A DNA stretch of 64,000 nt from contig CANRFZ010000007.1 in the NCBI GenBank assembly GCA_947630025.1, positions 62,001 to 126,000 on the forward strand. The letters run 5' to 3'. Below the pieces are notes generated by a model. It worked only from the letters and a program-made list of their open reading frames with translations. It was not told the origin of the DNA and searched no databases. Positions 475 to 30,073 of this stretch are shown one piece after another. Positions within the stretch are counted from its first letter, which is position 1; every line of letters begins with the position of its first letter. This DNA is from an uncultured Lachnospiraceae bacterium. Lineage in GTDB: Bacteria > Bacillota > Clostridia > Lachnospirales > Lachnospiraceae. Both the position numbers and the translations under genes were made by a program.

Positions 475-1830
475 GTCCATTTTGATATATTCTTTGTCGG
501 TGCTGACGGACTTGTACGCCGGTCGGATGATTTTGCCGTTGTTGGCCAGTTCTTCCATGCGGTGGGCGCTCCAGCCTACGATTCTGGCGATGGCAAAGAT
601 CGGCGTGTAGAGCTCGATCGGCAGATTCAGCATATTGTATACAAAACCGGAATAGAAGTCCACGTTGACGTTGACGCCCTTGTAGATAGGCCGCTCCTTG
701 GAGATGATTTCTGGGGCCAGTTTTTCCACCAGCGCGTACAGGGCAAATTCGTCGTGAAGCCCTTTTTCCTCAGAAAGCCGCTCCACAAAACTCTTAAAGA
801 TGACCGCACGCGGATCGGACTTGGAGTACACGGCGTGTCCGACGCCGTAGATCAGTCCAGCATGGTCGAAAGCGTCCTTGTGCAGCAGTTTTGTCAGATA
901 ATCGGCCACTTGTCCTTCGTCGGACCAGTCGGCCACTTCCCGCTTCATCTCCTCAAACATCTGGACAACCTTGATATTGGCACCGCCATGGCGGGGGCCT
1001 TTTAACGAACCGATGGCCGCCGCGATGACGGAGTAGGTGTCCGTCAGGGAGGAGGTGACGACGTGCGTCGTAAAGCTGGAATTGTTGCCGCCGCCGTGTT
1101 CCATATGTAAGATCAGGGCGATGTCCAGAATCTTGGCCTCCAGCGGCGTGTATTTACTGTCGGGACGGAGAATGTGGAGAATATTCTCGGCGTTGGACAG
1201 TTCGGCCTGCGGCTGGTGGATATACAGACTCTCGCCGTTGTGGTAGTGGTTGTACGCCTGATAGCCGTAGATGGAAAGCATCGGGAACAATGCGATCAAC
1301 TGCAGGCACTGGCGCAGTACGTTCGGCAGGGAAGTGTCGTCGGCCCGGTCGTCGTAAGAATACAGGGTGAGGACGCTTCTCGCCAGCGTGTTCATCATGT
1401 CGTTGCTGGGCGCTTTCATGATGATGTCACGCACGAAGCTCGTCGGCAGAGAGCGGTAGTCGGACAACAGTCTGGAAAAATCCTTTAACTCCTGTCGGTT
1501 CGGCAGCTTGTTGAACAGAAGAAGGTAGGTCACTTCCTCGAAGCCGAAACGGTTCTCGGAGGAAAAGCCCTCCACCAGATCCTGCACGTTGTAGCCCCGG
1601 TAGAACAGTCTGCCGTGGGTGGGAATCTGCACGCCGTCCACCACCTTGCTGGCGCGCACATCCGAAATATTGGTGAGGCCGGCGAGGACGCCCTTGCCGT
1701 TTAAATCGCGCAGACCGCGCTTTACATCATATTTGGTAAATAATTCGGTATCTATCATACCGGCCTGCTCGCTGAGAGCCGCAAGCCGAACGATCTCTGG
1801 CGTAATTTCCGAAAAACTGTTCTGTTCCAT
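460..1830 (-). CDS. gltA: citrate synthase (Si type)
   Basis: This enzyme condenses acetyl-CoA with oxaloacetate to citrate in the cytoplasm. The 456-residue product carries the family signatures HGGGN (about residue 243), LKGPRHGGAN (about 277, first catalytic His) and GVGHAVYSKSDPRA (about 330, second His region). The catalytic Asp is expected in the VNVDFYSG stretch. I place the start at 1830, giving MEQNSF, because GGAGG sits 8 nt upstream; an in-frame ATG 8 codons earlier lacks a good site. Upstream lies an inverted copy of the hairpin repeat family, and the gene ends in the palindrome at 449-474. A second, unrelated citrate synthase candidate lies at 32.8 kb. Confidence 0.95.
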   Translation of the reverse strand: MEQNSFSEITPEIVRLAALSEQAGMIDTELFTKYDVKRGLRDLNGKGVLAGLTNISDVRASKVVDGVQIPTHGRLFYRGYNVQDLVEGFSSENRFGFEEVTYLLLFNKLPNRQELKDFSRLLSDYRSLPTSFVRDIIMKAPSNDMMNTLARSVLTLYSYDDRADDTSLPNVLRQCLQLIALFPMLSIYGYQAYNHYHNGESLYIHQPQAELSNAENILHILRPDSKYTPLEAKILDIALILHMEHGGGNNSSFTTHVVTSSLTDTYSVIAAAIGSLKGPRHGGANIKVVQMFEEMKREVADWSDEGQVADYLTKLLHKDAFDHAGLIYGVGHAVYSKSDPRAVIFKSFVERLSEEKGLHDEFALYALVEKLAPEIISKERPIYKGVNVNVDFYSGFVYNMLNLPIELYTPIFAIARIVGWSAHRMEELANNGKIIRPAYKSVSTDKEYIKMDKRDA

Positions 1831-1870
1831 GATAAATGCCTCCTTCCCCATCATCCTATATAATTATCAT

Positions 1871-2003
1871 CATCTCTGATGCCAGTATCATAAACCATTT
1901 CCGGAGAATCCCGCAGGGATTCTCTAGAGTTAATTGCGGAGCAATTTACTCATGTTAATTGCGGAGCAATTTACTCATGTTAATTGCGGAGCAATTTACT
2001 CTT
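1871..2003 (-). repeat. hairpin repeat family, inverted copy with three tandem 25-bp units
   Basis: Read on the minus strand this is the same family as the copies at 28.3 and 47.7 kb. It has an ATGATAATAA start, the hairpin GAGAATCCC-tgc-GGGATTCTC (1904-1924), and the tail ending TACTGGCATCAGAGATG (near 1871-1889). Between start and hairpin are three direct 25-bp units at 1930-1954, 1955-1979 and 1980-2001 (the last incomplete), each with a small AATTGC/GCAATT stem. It lies 40-170 bp upstream of gltA in the same direction as the gene, so it may be transcribed as part of the gltA leader. The rest of 1831-2263 holds no gene. Confidence 0.8.
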
Positions 2004-2088
2004 ATTATCATAGCATGAAAGAAACTGCCGGCACAAGGAAAAACGTTAATTTAAGAAAGATTTAACATTATTCAAAAGTTGTTCACAT

Positions 2089-2115
2089 ATGCCGCAAACC
2101 GCCAAAATGCGGCAT
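2089..2115. other. hairpin in the deoC upstream region
   Basis: ATGCCGCA (2089-2096) and TGCGGCAT (2108-2115) form a perfect 8-bp stem with an 11-nt loop. No U-run follows. It could be an operator for a deo-type regulator or a leader hairpin. I see no convincing -35/-10 pair for deoC nearby; TACAAT at 2153-2158 is the best -10. Confidence 0.35.
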
Positions 2116-2263
2116 TTCGGATTTATGACTGGCGTTTTTTGGGAAACCGTATTACAATAAAAAGAGGACACGGCAGGCCGCCTTCGGCTCAGGGCAGGAT
2201 CAAAAATGGGACGGCGGCAGGTGTCCGCATCACACGAAACAGAGAGAGCAGGAGAGAGAGTAT

Positions 2264-2911
2264 ATGGAGAAACAGGAGATTCTGAGTCATGTGGATCACA
2301 CGCAGCTGCAGGCATACGCTGCATGGGAAGATATCGTGAAGCTGTGCGACGAGGCGGTGGCAAACAAAACCGCTTCCGTCTGTGTGCCGCCCACTTATAT
2401 TAAGCGCATCCGCGATGCCTACGGCGATCGGCTGACCATCTGTACGGTGGTGGGATTCCCGCTGGGTTACTCCGTCACGGAGGCCAAGGCCGCGGAGGTG
2501 CGGCAGGCACTTGCGGACGGCGCGGACGAGATCGATATGGTGGTGAATATCAGCGATGTCAAGAACGGTATGTACGACAAAGTGGAGCAGGAGATCCGCA
2601 CCCTGAAGGCGGTCTGCGGGACGCATATCCTGAAAGTGATCGTCGAGACGTGTTATCTGACGGAGGACGAAAAAATCGCCATGTGCCATGCCGTGACACG
2701 GGCAGGAGCCGATTATATCAAGACTTCCACCGGATTCGGCACCGGCGGTGCGACGATAGAGGACGTGCGGCTCTTTCGGAAGCATATCGGGCCCGGCGTA
2801 AAGATCAAGGCCGCCGGCGGCATCTCCACGACAGCGGATCTGGAAGCCTATTTGAACGAGGGCTGCGACAGGCTGGGGACTTCCCGGGCCGTGGGACTGC
2901 TGCAGGACTGA
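2264..2911 (+). CDS. deoC: deoxyribose-phosphate aldolase
   Basis: This class I aldolase splits 2-deoxyribose 5-phosphate into glyceraldehyde 3-phosphate and acetaldehyde, the last step in using deoxynucleosides. The 215-residue protein has the DeoC signatures: KVIVETCYLT with the first lysine near residue 125, and KTSTGFGTGGAT with the Schiff-base lysine near 156. Length is normal for the family. ATG 2264 follows AGGAGAG. It stands alone here, whereas the pyrimidine-nucleoside phosphorylase that would feed the same pathway is at 58.9 kb. The gene converges on pckA with a shared terminator. Confidence 0.95.
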   Translation: MEKQEILSHVDHTQLQAYAAWEDIVKLCDEAVANKTASVCVPPTYIKRIRDAYGDRLTICTVVGFPLGYSVTEAKAAEVRQALADGADEIDMVVNISDVKNGMYDKVEQEIRTLKAVCGTHILKVIVETCYLTEDEKIAMCHAVTRAGADYIKTSTGFGTGGATIEDVRLFRKHIGPGVKIKAAGGISTTADLEAYLNEGCDRLGTSRAVGLLQD

Positions 2912-3009
2912 CGGCGAATACAGACGGACGCAGATAGAATGTAGATAGAATGTAGAATAGAAGTCAGACAGGACGGCGGCGGTTCGTTCCTGCGCTGCGG
3001 GAAGCGTAA

Positions 3010-3038
3010 AAAACGGGTGTGGAATCCACACCCGTTTT
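3010..3038. terminator. bidirectional terminator between deoC and pckA
   Basis: A perfect 13-bp stem (3010-3022 with 3026-3038) has a 3-nt loop, and A-rich and T-rich ends. It can work on both strands for the convergent deoC and pckA genes. Confidence 0.9.
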
Positions 3039-3059
3039 CATGTATCGGTTCGATAAGGA

Positions 3060-4664
3060 TTATAACTGAGGGCCAGCCGCCACCAGCGCTTTGCCGGCGT
3101 CGTTGCCTTCGTATTTCGCAAAGTTCTTGATGAATCTCTGCGCCAGATCTTTCGCCTTGGTCTCCCACTCGGAAACGTCGGCGTATGTGTTGCGGGGATC
3201 GAGAATGTTGGTGTCAACACCCGGAAGCTCCGTGGGCACTTCAAAGTTGAAGTAAGGAATCTTCTTCGTGGACGCCTTCTCGATGTCGCCGTTTAAGATC
3301 GCGTCGATGATACCGCGCGTATCTTTGATGGAGATACGCTTGCCGGTGCCGTTCCAGCCCGTATTTACCAGATATGCCTTGGCGTTGTTGGCTTCCATCT
3401 TCTTGACGAGCTCCTCGCCGTATTTGGTGGGATGCAGCTCTAGGAATGCCTGACCAAAGCAAGCAGAGAACGTAGGAGTAGGCTCCGTGATGCCGCGCTC
3501 CGTGCCTGCCAGTTTAGCCGTGAAGCCGGACAGGAAGTAGTACTGTGTCTGCTCGGGCGTCAGTACGGATACCGGAGGCAGTACGCCGAACGCATCCGCG
3601 GACAGGAAGATGACATTCTTCGCCGCCGGTGCGGAGGAAACAGGACGTACAATGTTCTGGATATGATTGATCGGGTAGGATACACGTGTATTCTCCGTTG
3701 TGCTGCCGTCGCTGAAATCAATCTTGCCGTTTGCGTCAACGGTAACGTTCTCCAGCAGCGCGTCGCGCTTGATCGCATTGTAGATATCGGGCTCGGAGTC
3801 TTTGTCCAGATTGATGACCTTGGCATAGCAGCCGCCCTCGAAGTTGAACACGCCGTTGTCGTCCCAGCCGTGCTCGTCGTCGCCGATCAGCAGACGCTTG
3901 GGGTCCGTGGAAAGCGTTGTCTTACCCGTGCCGGACAGACCGAAGAAGATCGCCGTATTCTTGCCGTCCATATCCGTGTTGGCGGAGCAGTGCATGGAAG
4001 CGATTCCCTTTAGCGGCAGATAGTAGTTCATCATGGAGAACATACCCTTCTTCATCTCGCCGCCGTACCATGTGTTGATGATAACCTGTTCGCGGCTGGT
4101 GATGTTGAAAGCAACGCAGGTCTCGGAGTTGAGGCCCAGCTCCTTGTAATTCTCAACTTTTGCCTTGGATGCGTTGTAAACTACGAAATCGGGCTCGAAG
4201 TCTGCCAGCTCCTCGTCGGAAGGCTGGATGAACATATTCTTGATGAAGTGCGCCTGCCATGCAACCTCAACGATGAAGCGAACCGCCATGCGGGTGTCCT
4301 TGTTCGCGCCGCAGAATGCGTCTACGACGAAAAGCCGCTTGTTGCAGAGCTCTTTCTTTGCCAGATCCTTGACGGTAGCCCAGACCTCCTCGGACATGGG
4401 GTGGTTGTCGTTCTTGTACTCGTCGGAAGTCCACCAAACGGTATCTTTGGAATTGGCGTCCATAACGATATACTTATCTTTAGGGGAACGTCCCGTATAG
4501 ATACCTGTCATAACGTTGACTGCGCCCAGCTCGCTGACTTGGCCTTTCTCATAGCCCTCCAGACCGGGTTTGATCTCTTCTTCATATAACATATCGTAAG
4601 AAGGATTGTGCACGATCTCGGTGGTTCCGGTGATGCCGTACTTGCTCAAATCAATTTGTGCCAT
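3060..4664 (-). CDS. pckA: phosphoenolpyruvate carboxykinase (ATP)
   Basis: The enzyme interconverts oxaloacetate plus ATP with PEP, CO2 and ADP. In gut anaerobes it often runs toward oxaloacetate, fixing CO2 and making ATP. The 534-residue product has the kinase-1a loop [11 protein letters not shown] near residue 243, the oxaloacetate/metal-binding run [15 protein letters not shown] near 215, and the IGDDEHGW segment. Length is typical. ATG 4664 follows AAAGAGG at 8 nt. The gene has its own promoter (4732-4759, minus strand) and sits divergent from the GGDEF gene. Confidence 0.97.
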
Positions 4665-4822: not shown

Positions 4823-4883
4823 GGAAACAGGACGGAAGAAAACCGCGCCCGCGCGTGTAGAGGATTGGGAATACGGAGGAAAA

Positions 4884-5014
4884 GTGTGCAAAATCACACT
4901 GATGTGCTGATTTTGCACACGGGAATTTGTGCCGGAGCGTCACAAATTCCTCTGATGGCAGACGCGAATTTGAGATTCGCGTCGCCGCCGTCGCGTAAGC
5001 GCTCCGGAATGGAG
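4884..5014 (+). promoter_or_regulatory. structured leader with a possible pseudoknot, copy 1 (GGDEF gene)
   Basis: There are three perfect stems in a row: 4884-4896 with 4908-4920 (13 bp), 4922-4931 with 4941-4950 (10 bp, loop CCGGAGCGT), and 4961-4969 with 4975-4983 (9 bp). The loop bases 4932-4939 (CCGGAGCG) are fully complementary to 5000-5007 (CGCTCCGG), which end 3 nt before the GGAG ribosome binding site at 5011-5014. The same architecture, loop and ribosome-binding-site flank occur at 20.9 kb. A cis-acting translational switch is the simplest reading; the ligand is unknown and I do not recognise a named riboswitch class. Confidence 0.65.
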
Positions 5015-5020
5015 ATTGGT

Positions 5021-6271
5021 ATGTATCACTGTCATTTATGTATCTATGTCATCGGGCAGAGCAGGGAGCCGGTCGATGTGCTGAAAGAGATCGAGCCCCT
5101 GAAACACTTTAAGCACGAGTTCATCAGCAGCGCCGAGCCGAGGGAGCTGCTCACGCCGAAGGCGGATCTGATCATCGCCGACCTGACGGGCTTAAATGCG
5201 CAGACAGCGCTGCGCGGGCTGGCATATCATATGAAGGAGGGCGCGCAGCTCATCCTGATTTTGAGCAAGAACCAGACGGAGAAGATCATGGAGCAGGAGG
5301 CGGATCTTGAGAAAGTGACGGATATCTGGACGGCTCCGGTTGCGGCCAAAGAGCTGCGGTTCCGGTTCGCCAGATGGCAGCGGATCTGTAAGGAGAGCAA
5401 GGACTACTGGCAGACGCGCAATTATCTGGACACGACGATCAATAGCGTGGAGCATATGGTCTGGTACAAGGATAAGACGGGCGCGCATATGAAGGTCAAC
5501 GACTTCTTCTGCAGGACGGTGGGCAAGACGATGGAGCAGATCGAGGGCCGCGGGCATTACTATATATGGAACATCAAGCCGGACGATTACGCGAAGGGCG
5601 AATATATCTGCATGGAGTCGGAGTTTGAGGTTATGGACAAGCGCCAGACCTGTGTGTTCGATGAAACGATCAAAATCGGCAACGAGATGCGCAAACTCAA
5701 GACTTACAAATCCCCGCTCTTTGACTTGGACGGCAGCATCATGGGCACGGTGGGCGTCGCGCTGGATGTGACGGAGCTGCAGATGTATGAGCAGATGCTT
5801 ATCAAAAACGCCAGCACGGACGCGCTGACGGGCCTTTACAACAGAAGGTACGTCTACGAATATATCGAAGGGCTGGACGAAGGGCAGAACCACATTACGG
5901 TGTTCGGCATCGATCTGGATCACTTTAAGAGCATTAACGACATCTACGGCCACGCGGAGGGCGACAAGGCGCTCGTCCTTGCGGCCCGGACGCTGCAGGA
6001 GTGCATCACGGACGGCCTGATATCCAGAATCGGCGGGGACGAGTTTGAGATTGTCATGCTGGGCGAGCGCTCGGCGGAGGAGATCGAGCAGACACGTCGG
6101 ATGATCGGCGCAAAACTCAACGAAGCGTTCGCGGGAGACAGCCGCCTGCGCGGAATTACCGCCAGCGTCGGCGCGGCGCACACCGACCGGGGCAAGGAAA
6201 ACTTTGACCGTCTGACCGGTGAGGCGGACGCGCTTATGTACCGGGAGAAGGAGAAGAAACAGAAAAGATAG
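5021..6271 (+). CDS. PAS-GGDEF diguanylate cyclase
   Basis: Predicted to make cyclic di-GMP from two GTP. The 416-residue product has three parts. Residues 1-125 are receiver-like but have no clear phosphoacceptor site. About 135-265 is a PAS-type sensor (VEHMVWYKDKTGAHMKVNDF). The GGDEF domain spans about 275-415 with DLDHFKSINDIYGH and an intact GGDEF near 338. No RxxD inhibitory site is visible five residues before GGDEF, so product inhibition may be absent. I use ATG 5021 because GGAG at 5011-5014 is well spaced and the region upstream is structured RNA, not plausible protein. No transmembrane segment is seen, so it should be a cytoplasmic sensor. Confidence 0.85.
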   Translation: MYHCHLCIYVIGQSREPVDVLKEIEPLKHFKHEFISSAEPRELLTPKADLIIADLTGLNAQTALRGLAYHMKEGAQLILILSKNQTEKIMEQEADLEKVTDIWTAPVAAKELRFRFARWQRICKESKDYWQTRNYLDTTINSVEHMVWYKDKTGAHMKVNDFFCRTVGKTMEQIEGRGHYYIWNIKPDDYAKGEYICMESEFEVMDKRQTCVFDETIKIGNEMRKLKTYKSPLFDLDGSIMGTVGVALDVTELQMYEQMLIKNASTDALTGLYNRRYVYEYIEGLDEGQNHITVFGIDLDHFKSINDIYGHAEGDKALVLAARTLQECITDGLISRIGGDEFEIVMLGERSAEEIEQTRRMIGAKLNEAFAGDSRLRGITASVGAAHTDRGKENFDRLTGEADALMYREKEKKQKR

Positions 6272-6350: not shown

Positions 6351-6358
6351 AAGAGTAA

Positions 6359-6540
6359 CCTGAAATGTGCGATTATATCCTGTTGTTTTGAACCTACAGA
6401 TACTTTAAACGGGATTCCTATATTGCCATGCGGATGTCAGGCCTCCGGCTTCGGGCTTTGTGCAGGGGAAGGCAGAAAGATGGCTGCGGTTACCCACCTA
6501 GCTTTGCTAGGAGTCAAAAGACAGGATTCGGCATTTCGGG
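6359..6540 (+). ncRNA. ssrS: 6S RNA (RNA polymerase-binding regulatory RNA)
   Basis: About 180 nt. An interrupted long closing stem pairs CCTGAAATG (6359-6367) with CATTTCGGG (6532-6540) and TCCTGT..TTTTGA (6378-6391) with TCAAAA..ACAGGA (6513-6526). A central open region and an apical hairpin CCTAGC-ttt-GCTAGG (6497-6511) follow. This rod with a central bubble mimics an open promoter and sequesters the housekeeping RNA polymerase. The promoter and terminator bracket it exactly. Identification rests on architecture and on my recollection of clostridial 6S sequences; a covariance search with the RF00013 model would settle it. Confidence 0.78.
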
Positions 6541-6552
6541 CGATACGAAAGA

Positions 6553-20747: not shown

Positions 20748-20880
20748 ATACTTACGGTTTGTGCTTGGGGACGTTGGAAAAGGAACAATCTGCCCAATCG
20801 CAGCGGGATAACGGAACTGGAGGATGCGCAGTGTGGACATCGGCGGCGCGGCATCACGCGGATTGCCGGTTGTTTCACAG

Positions 20881-20995
20881 AACGGACATAGTCCGTTCGA
20901 CTGTTTGGGCCGGAGCGTCCCGGACAGTCCGATGGCGGACGGAAGCTATTGTTGCGGTTTTTGCCGCCCTGTCGCGTAAACGCTTCAGAATGGAG
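20881..20995 (+). promoter_or_regulatory. structured leader with a possible pseudoknot, copy 2 (EF-G paralogue)
   Basis: Stem 1 is AACGGAC/GTCCGTT (20881-20887 with 20891-20897). Stem 2 is 11 bp with two G-U pairs (20899-20909 with 20919-20929) and carries the same nine-base loop CCGGAGCGT as copy 1 on an unrelated stem sequence. The loop can pair, with one mismatch and one G-U, with CGCTTCAG (20981-20988), just before the GGAG ribosome binding site (20992-20995). The distance from the end of stem 2 to the conserved TCGCGTAA is 41 nt here and 40 nt in copy 1. Confidence 0.62.
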
Positions 20996-21002
20996 ACTGA
21001 CA

Positions 21003-29860: not shown

Positions 29861-30073
29861 CGCGCATCAAGTCCGTTCGGCGCCGGGCTTCGTCGCGGGA
29901 TTTTCTAAATATTCCGGGGCGGTTATGTATGCGGACGCAACCGCCCGCCACTCGGCATCCGGCCTCGGGGCGGGCTTTACGTGACATCCATGTCACGTAA
30001 TTGCTGGATATCTGCGGAATATTAAGAAAATCCAACGCTCCTGCACAGGACGCCGAGCGGACTTTGATGCGCG
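29861..30073. other. branched inverted-repeat element (about 213 nt)
   Basis: The outer arms 29861-29882 and 30051-30073 pair over about 22 bp with one bulge. A second pair of arms, 29898-29916 with 30014-30032, pairs with one mismatch. Inside are a perfect 11-bp hairpin (29977-29987 with 29990-30000) and two alternative GC-rich stems (29918-29924 with 29939-29945; 29943-29949 with 29969-29975). No reading frame of interest overlaps it. It could be a long structured RNA, a complex terminator for the sortase gene, or a MITE-like element. Confidence 0.6.

Follow-up and report, generated by a model that had tools for sequence, protein, structure and literature searches.

The segment that precedes the GGDEF-domain protein gene in the 64,000-nucleotide stretch of DNA analysed here (the window), which derives from an uncultured Lachnospiraceae bacterium (the host), is probably a copy of a non-autonomous mobile repeat that targets Shine-Dalgarno (SD) sequences and replaces the ribosome-binding site (RBS) of the gene it enters with a pseudoknotted leader. 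Copy number, position, empty sites, the covarying fold, the insertion and an SD of its own are features that can be read from the sequence itself. The element is a structured RNA family that, at the two copies present in the window, is new relative to Rfam. A preliminary description of this DNA had taken it for the cis-regulatory leader of a diguanylate cyclase; its placement in a 5′ leader was upheld, but the specificity for the cyclase was not, since the genes downstream of other copies are unrelated. Cis-regulation by the element is possible, and any regulatory effect of its pseudoknot is one that we infer. It is probably not a regulon leader.

Two copies in the window and the sites they occupy

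The features of both copies, which are 135 bp (copy 1) and 169 bp (copy 2) long, are given in Table 1. In agreement with the preliminary description, sequence and folding both revealed three strong hairpins ahead of the GGDEF start codon, and the loop of the middle one can pair over 8 bases with a segment that ends 3 nt before the SD of the element. Its observation that the same loop recurs on a different stem at 20.9 kb, together with a conserved tail, also proved correct: the P2 stem of copy 2 (GACTGTTTGGG/CCCGGACAGTC) is unrelated to that of copy 1, while the 9-base loop is identical and the tail nearly so. A tail pattern derived from copy 2 had copy 1, at 3 mismatches, as its sole further match in the window, and two matches were found in none of 100 shuffles (mean 0.00). 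The region 4880-5028 has a folding energy of -69.7 kcal/mol (z = -7.6) and the copy 2 segment 20868-21010 gave z = -4.3, with equally stable shuffles in 0/200 cases for each; shorter cuts of the two copies folded less strongly (z = -3.6, 0/200 and z = -2.1, 5/200).

Table 1. Positions in the window of the two element copies, their parts and the adjacent genes
Feature	Position	Strand	Remarks
Original SD (GGAGG) of the GGDEF gene	4875..4879	+	Now 5′ of the element; also at empty sites
Element copy 1	4884..5018	+	Sits between old SD and ATG of the GGDEF gene
P1 hairpin, copy 1	4884..4920	+	Arms 4884-4895 / 4909-4920; helix 1 covaries
P2 hairpin, copy 1	4921..4951	+	Arms 4921-4931 / 4941-4951; loop 4932-4940 (CCGGAGCGT); helix 2 covaries
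P3 hairpin, copy 1	4957..4986	+	GGC/GCC base plus arms 4961-4968 / 4976-4983; helices 4 and 5 covary
P4, small alternative hairpin GCG-TAAG-CGC	4993..5002	+	Competes with the pseudoknot for the 5′ portion of its 3′ strand
Pseudoknot 3′ strand, copy 1	5000..5007	+	CGCTCCGG; partner is 4932-4939
Element-borne SD (GGAG), copy 1	5011..5014	+	SD-like sequence at the equivalent place in the other copies inspected
GGDEF-domain protein gene, 416 aa	5021..6271	+	Pfam GGDEF, E 1.2e-32; downstream of copy 1
Original SD (GGAGG) of the EF-G-like gene	20819..20823	+	Closest relatives share AACTGGAGG
Element copy 2	20831..20999	+	Diverged: weak P1, extra hairpin before P2; precedes the EF-G-like gene
P2 hairpin, copy 2	20899..20929	+	Loop 20910-20918
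Pseudoknot 3′ strand, copy 2	20980..20988	+	ACGCTTCAG; one mismatch
SD carried by copy 2	20992..20995	+	Read from the sequence
EF-G-like gene, 697 aa	21003..23096	+	Pfam EFG_IV, GTP_EFTU, EFG_C and others

The earlier statement that the RNA is not a c-di-GMP-I or -II riboswitch holds against Rfam, and no other known family was matched either: in a scan of the window neither copy reached a gathering threshold. The best sub-threshold matches, Spd-sr07 over P1 of copy 1 (29.3 bits, E 0.0097, the cut-off being 55) and snoU31b at copy 2 (15.1 bits against a cut-off of 37), were taken as chance. The only hits of the scan at gathering threshold lay elsewhere, namely 6S RNA (RF00013, 64 bits) at 6354-6546 on the + strand, directly 3′ of the GGDEF gene, and a TwoAYGGAY RNA (RF01731, 108 bits) at 29885-30048 on the - strand.

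Comparison with orthologous loci of relatives provided empty sites. At the GGDEF locus the host carries GGAGGAAAA, the element and GTATG, and the four closest relatives (88-92% protein identity) carry GGAGGAAAA-GCATG or near variants, so that the right-hand junction requires one substitution (C to T). These GGDEF orthologs without the element speak against the proposed tie to the diguanylate cyclase. The empty sites also agree with the start at 4884 given earlier but place the end at 5018 instead of 5014. At the atpC locus the host has GGAGTAAATA, the element and GCGTATG. Upstream of the EF-G gene the SD-ATG distance is 10 nt in the closest relatives, and the two flanks of the element in the host sum to the same 10 nt, which indicates an insertion, with the old SD still standing before the element.

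Model R2 (see below) found no match at E<=0.01 over 29 GGDEF and 29 atpC loci of relatives, where nine weak matches scored 12.7 to 19.4 bits. Nor did it find a match before any EF-G gene over 80 EF-G loci of relatives, although in L001 and L025 no more than 11 and 85 bases, respectively, precede the gene. The sole strong match in this set (132.5 bits) was at 3401-3544 of L026, from a public Lachnospiraceae metagenome-assembled genome, and lies after its EF-G gene (1001-3073). Genome G097, of which 325 kb was fetched, was too distant for empty sites (gene-flank matches were 65-83% identical) and was used only for purB. Other hairpin-rich insertions, unlike the element by eye, were seen in the atpD-atpC gap of L289, L296, L300, L301 and L305; they perhaps represent another repeat family.

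A target-site duplication was considered, but the GGDEF empty sites do not support one, and the flanking dinucleotides did not match copy by copy when inspected by eye. The atpC site, taken alone, is compatible with a TA duplication, whereas the GGDEF site shows none. The element is repeated, non-coding and absent at orthologous sites, as is expected of a classical MITE.

Number, position and ends of the copies

A loose pattern, consisting of the loop followed by GATGGC, occurred at 18 places in the host genome, and model R1 was built from these. R1 detected 55 copies in the host at E<=1e-3. Of the 74 rows returned by this search 18 were left aside (E 0.015 to 0.95; 13 antisense to known copies), and L203 (E 0.0185) was retained, giving a set of 56 own copies. 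Within the genus, matches were present in 49 of 77 genomes, host included, and six genomes contained 41 to 53 matches each, with 53 candidates per genome scored. Model R2 was built from 42 diverse copies; in a sample of the family it matched 58 of 397 genomes, host included, and 53 of 334 genera, with 8 candidates per genome scored. Copy 1 was matched by both models and was itself among the sequences used to build them. A family-wide search had been suggested in the preliminary description, and the matches found in Lachnospiraceae lie mostly in 5′ leader positions and show covariation. In a class-wide sample 4 of 391 genomes matched, all four belonging to the family of the host. Outside the family, a pattern search gave 2 of 24 genomes of the same order, G043 and G047, and the four pattern places of G043 also match R1 (E 8.5e-12 to 1.3e-8). 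Excluded from the match sets were 6 weak antisense rows and 2 duplicates of 64, and in further sets 6 weak antisense rows of 88 and 4 of 37. Stems are alike within one genome and often different between genomes (in one comparison the loop was fixed by the pattern).

A viral carrier was also considered and rejected. Three exact patterns, which diverged copies would escape, had no match in IMG/VR viral sequences, and a search of plasmids gave none either. Three records labelled "Bacteriophage sp." do carry the element: L395, L396 and L397 (MT838414, MT836788 and MT837007). The ORFs of L396 read as genes for enolase-like, FeoB-like and cysteine-desulfurase-like proteins, so that this record resembles a piece of bacterial chromosome, and L395 and L397 may be of the same kind.

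Most copies directly precede a gene. Right after the element, 44 of the 56 own copies, 73 of 82 copies from other genomes and all 33 of a third set, drawn almost entirely from other genera, have a start codon that opens a reading frame of 50 or more codons; this test is a loose one, which random positions pass in 23-26% of cases. The ATG is exactly 2 nt after the element in 35/56, 56/82 and 23/33 copies of these sets, respectively, as compared with an ATG at that fixed place for 1.7-2.7% of random positions, although both models include the SD and tail and are thereby biased toward copies that retain them. The remaining 12 own copies and 9 others failed the first test; in one of the former, L135, a short reading frame comes first.

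A Pfam scan of 20 downstream proteins gave unrelated families, housekeeping and other, with no common pathway. These were GGDEF, EF-G, formyl transferase, ornithine/aspartate carbamoyltransferase, hemerythrin, ABC substrate-binding protein, HisG, ATP synthase epsilon, GreA, YchF, SOR/SNZ, KDPG aldolase, indole-glycerol phosphate synthase, shikimate dehydrogenase, GTPase, DNA methylase, class I tRNA synthetase, lyase (purB by reading), TrkA_N and RnfC. Of the copies fetched from other genomes, 106 have a downstream protein, and one of these (from G207, which belongs to another genus) precedes an ortholog of a gene behind an own copy, namely purB; the other-genome copies were fetched only in part, so that shared insertion places are undercounted. 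The purB copies, L195 in the host and L378 in the other genus, mark the only shared insertion place seen; they may stem from an old shared insertion, which speaks for some stability. A second ortholog hit (37% over 145 residues) was taken for a paralog.

Flanks and ends were compared in the 81 of 102 aligned copies that have a standard P1. The 16 nt left flank contained an SD-like 4-mer in 72 of them, as against 30% of random positions, and it ended in TA at the junction in 62, as against 4% at random. The right end of the element is AATGGAGATTA, the last two places being T in 78% and A in 80%. In the tandem copies L204 and L206 the element starts precisely at the end of the preceding copy. 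No terminal inverted repeats were seen by eye, the ends GTGTG... and ...GGAGATTA not being complementary.

Fold and pseudoknot

The fold of the element has three hairpins (P1, P2 and P3), a pseudoknot that joins the loop of P2 to the tail, and conserved unpaired stretches. In an alignment of 42 full-length copies, hand-picked from 86 clusters with truncated or atypical copies left out, 94.9% of the cells pair and 31 of 46 pairs changed on both sides. The covariation score was 0.314 as compared with 0.119 in shuffles, and none of 500 shuffles reached it. For the pseudoknot helix 93.6% of cells pair, and two-sided changes occur at 4 of its 9 pairs. Covariation thus backs both parts of the earlier proposal, the structured RNA family and its pseudoknot between loop and RBS.

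The pseudoknot sequence is not the same in several lineages, and 33 additional copies maintain the pairing with changed strands, such as CCGAAGCG/CGCTTCGG, TCTGAGCG/CGCTCAGA and CCGCAGGCGC/GCGTCTGCGG. A pseudoknot pairing score of at least 6, with G-U counted half, was obtained for all 33 of these and for 39 of the 42 (72/75 together). The observed total was reached by none of 5000 permutations for each set and for both combined; in the 42 copies the margin was small (mean 7.82 against a best permutation of 7.75), and neither the shuffle nor the permutation controls take account of relatedness among copies.

The alternative hairpin P4 (GCG-UAAA-CGC) overlaps the pseudoknot strand; by eye it shows compensating changes along with that strand in many copies, and it is broken in some, among them L351, L356 and L360. 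In a folding model the SD was unpaired with a mean probability of 0.35, which rose to 0.52 when both pseudoknot strands were held back, part of this gain arising by construction; 30 of 75 copies stayed below 0.5. In this model the pseudoknot alters the accessibility of the SD only to a modest extent, and pairing of the tail with the SD was not retained as a switch for this reason. Covariation is no test of tail-to-SD pairing, since the ribosome dictates the sequence of the SD.

Mode of spread, rival readings and known systems

The scheme that best accounts for these results is as follows. The preferred target is an SD followed by TA, entered in one orientation, with no detectable target-site duplication and usually 2 nt ahead of the start codon. 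The right end of the element supplies a new SD with its spacer, from which the invaded gene could presumably still be translated. The transcript is predicted to fold into P1, P2 and P3, with the P2 loop pairing to a stretch immediately 5′ of the new SD. The tail also contains CUCC, an anti-SD-like sequence that could pair with the SD GGAG. Pairing with the P2 loop would prevent this, and by keeping CUCC off the SD the pseudoknot might leave translation possible or make it tunable. Movement would probably require an enzyme supplied in trans. It is unlikely that the element is, beyond this, a mobile translation-initiation module, that is, a selfish RNA element that targets the SD/start-codon junction and brings an SD together with a pseudoknot switch, in which P2 loop, P4 and SD would compete for one strand of the tail. 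If true, each insertion would add a gene to a shared translational control, and regulons would form by transposition.

Small bacterial repeats are usually regarded as intergenic clutter. Derivatives of IS200/IS605 of the REP/PATE type insert strand-specifically without target duplication, have a target motif like their right-end motif and contain hairpins. The element is tentatively similar to them, being oriented, free of a target duplication and rich in hairpins, with a target that resembles its right end, but it differs in its SD target, in its long-range pseudoknot and in the distribution of Y1 transposases given below. The IStrons of Clostridioides are mobile elements with a structured RNA in which the invaded gene is spared by splicing. 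The element likewise carries a structured RNA and appears to spare the gene, but it would do so through a new SD and not through splicing, has no Rfam intron match at the two window copies and offers no room for a protein. The preQ1-II and SAM-II riboswitches and the S4 leader are translational regulators with an RBS pseudoknot. The element shares this pseudoknot but, unlike them, is not tied to one pathway, is repeated and is apparently mobile. The same likeness and differences apply to the pnuC motif, an RNA leader with an RBS pseudoknot (PMC8632094). BOX, RUP and SPRITE of Streptococcus pneumoniae are, according to PMC3049150, small multicopy stem-loop repeats judged parasitic, over-represented between convergent genes (its Table 1), with BOX modules able to alter downstream gene expression. 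The element is also small, multicopy and stem-loop-forming, but in contrast to the repeats covered there it is located at ribosome-binding sites and supplies an SD. MITEs are described in the same paper (PMC3049150) as having terminal inverted repeats and target duplications, neither of which the element shows. A search of titles and the starts of abstracts in a library of open-access journal articles gave no description of such an element.

The element appears to aim at the RBS, to replace it and to keep a covarying pseudoknot there. Such behaviour would account for the spread of a transposable element into housekeeping genes (EF-G-like, ATP synthase) that are not silenced by it. With some 50 replaced RBSs, a single genome provides a natural series for measuring the effect on translation. 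A pitfall also follows: an RNA that covaries and lies close to the RBS may turn out to be a mobile repeat and not a riboswitch.

The strong covariation, the conserved unpaired stretches and the sense position at the RBS are typical of cis-regulators and, with the orthologous purB pair in two genera, are what would be expected of a vertically inherited leader, riboswitch-like or protein-bound, common to about 50 co-regulated genes. Such a leader is nevertheless most improbable, given that the downstream genes belong to unrelated families, that the GGDEF, atpC and EF-G genes of relatives are without the element, and that copies are alike within a genome with stems that are often genome-specific. 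Conversely, the element might be a selfish repeat without effect on expression, its fold being kept only for mobility as single-stranded DNA. We regard this as a serious, if doubtful, possibility: mobility is suggested by the empty sites, and a constraint on a single-stranded DNA fold would look identical. Sixteen decayed own copies with a loop-like region bear on this point. The pairing was lost in four (L189-L192), as a selfish repeat would allow, but a score of at least 6 was kept in 12; this survival argues weakly for a role after insertion, as much of it is simply inherited sequence.

As to the mode of movement, it is possible, though on the unlikely side, that the element is a miniature single-strand (HUH) derivative of the IS200/IS605 type, cut 3′ of an SD-nTA motif repeated at its right end. 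Its sense orientation, internal hairpins and lack of a detectable target duplication would agree with this, as would, tentatively, the resemblance of the left flank GGAGnnTA to the right end. Against it, Y1_Tnp was detected in 30 of 77 genus genomes and was absent from 10 of the 14 with at least 20 element matches. These ten (G030, G000, G028, G009, G006, G072, G095, G002, G087 and G019) have 21 to 53 matches, some Y1-negative genomes being incomplete (G000, 82%), and Y1_Tnp was present in the element-rich G098, G034, G014 and G063. Y2_Tnp was found in only 8 of the 77, G095 and G002 among them. We consider it very unlikely that the element moves as RNA copied back into DNA, by retrotransposition, or by reverse splicing into the place on an mRNA where the ribosome enters. 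The sense orientation of the copies at initiation sites would fit such a route, and so would the many 5′-truncated copies with an intact 3′ end: by reading, 10 partial matches in the host genome have the 3′ part only and 4 the 5′ part only. However, selection for the RBS would likewise preserve the 3′ end, and several 5′-truncated copies (L181, L184, L192 and L194) join at GGAG, which fits a deletion that runs from the old SD to the P2-loop GGAG. RVT_1 was present in 6 of the 10 element-rich genomes chosen and in 4 of the 9 element-free ones. Neither Y1, Y2 nor RVT_1 tracks the element, and all three were rejected as mobilisers.

The partial host matches looked at revealed no autonomous relative. 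Three of the 5′-only fragments were fetched for a larger, autonomous copy, and no transposase was seen between element ends; by eye, L259 resembles a 3′ truncation, and L258 and L260 resemble internal deletions. In L132 and L121 the locus-specific tail sequence is repeated just upstream of the element, as if it were a remnant of an earlier copy or the result of conversion. In L193 the P3 region is replaced by short tandem repeats.
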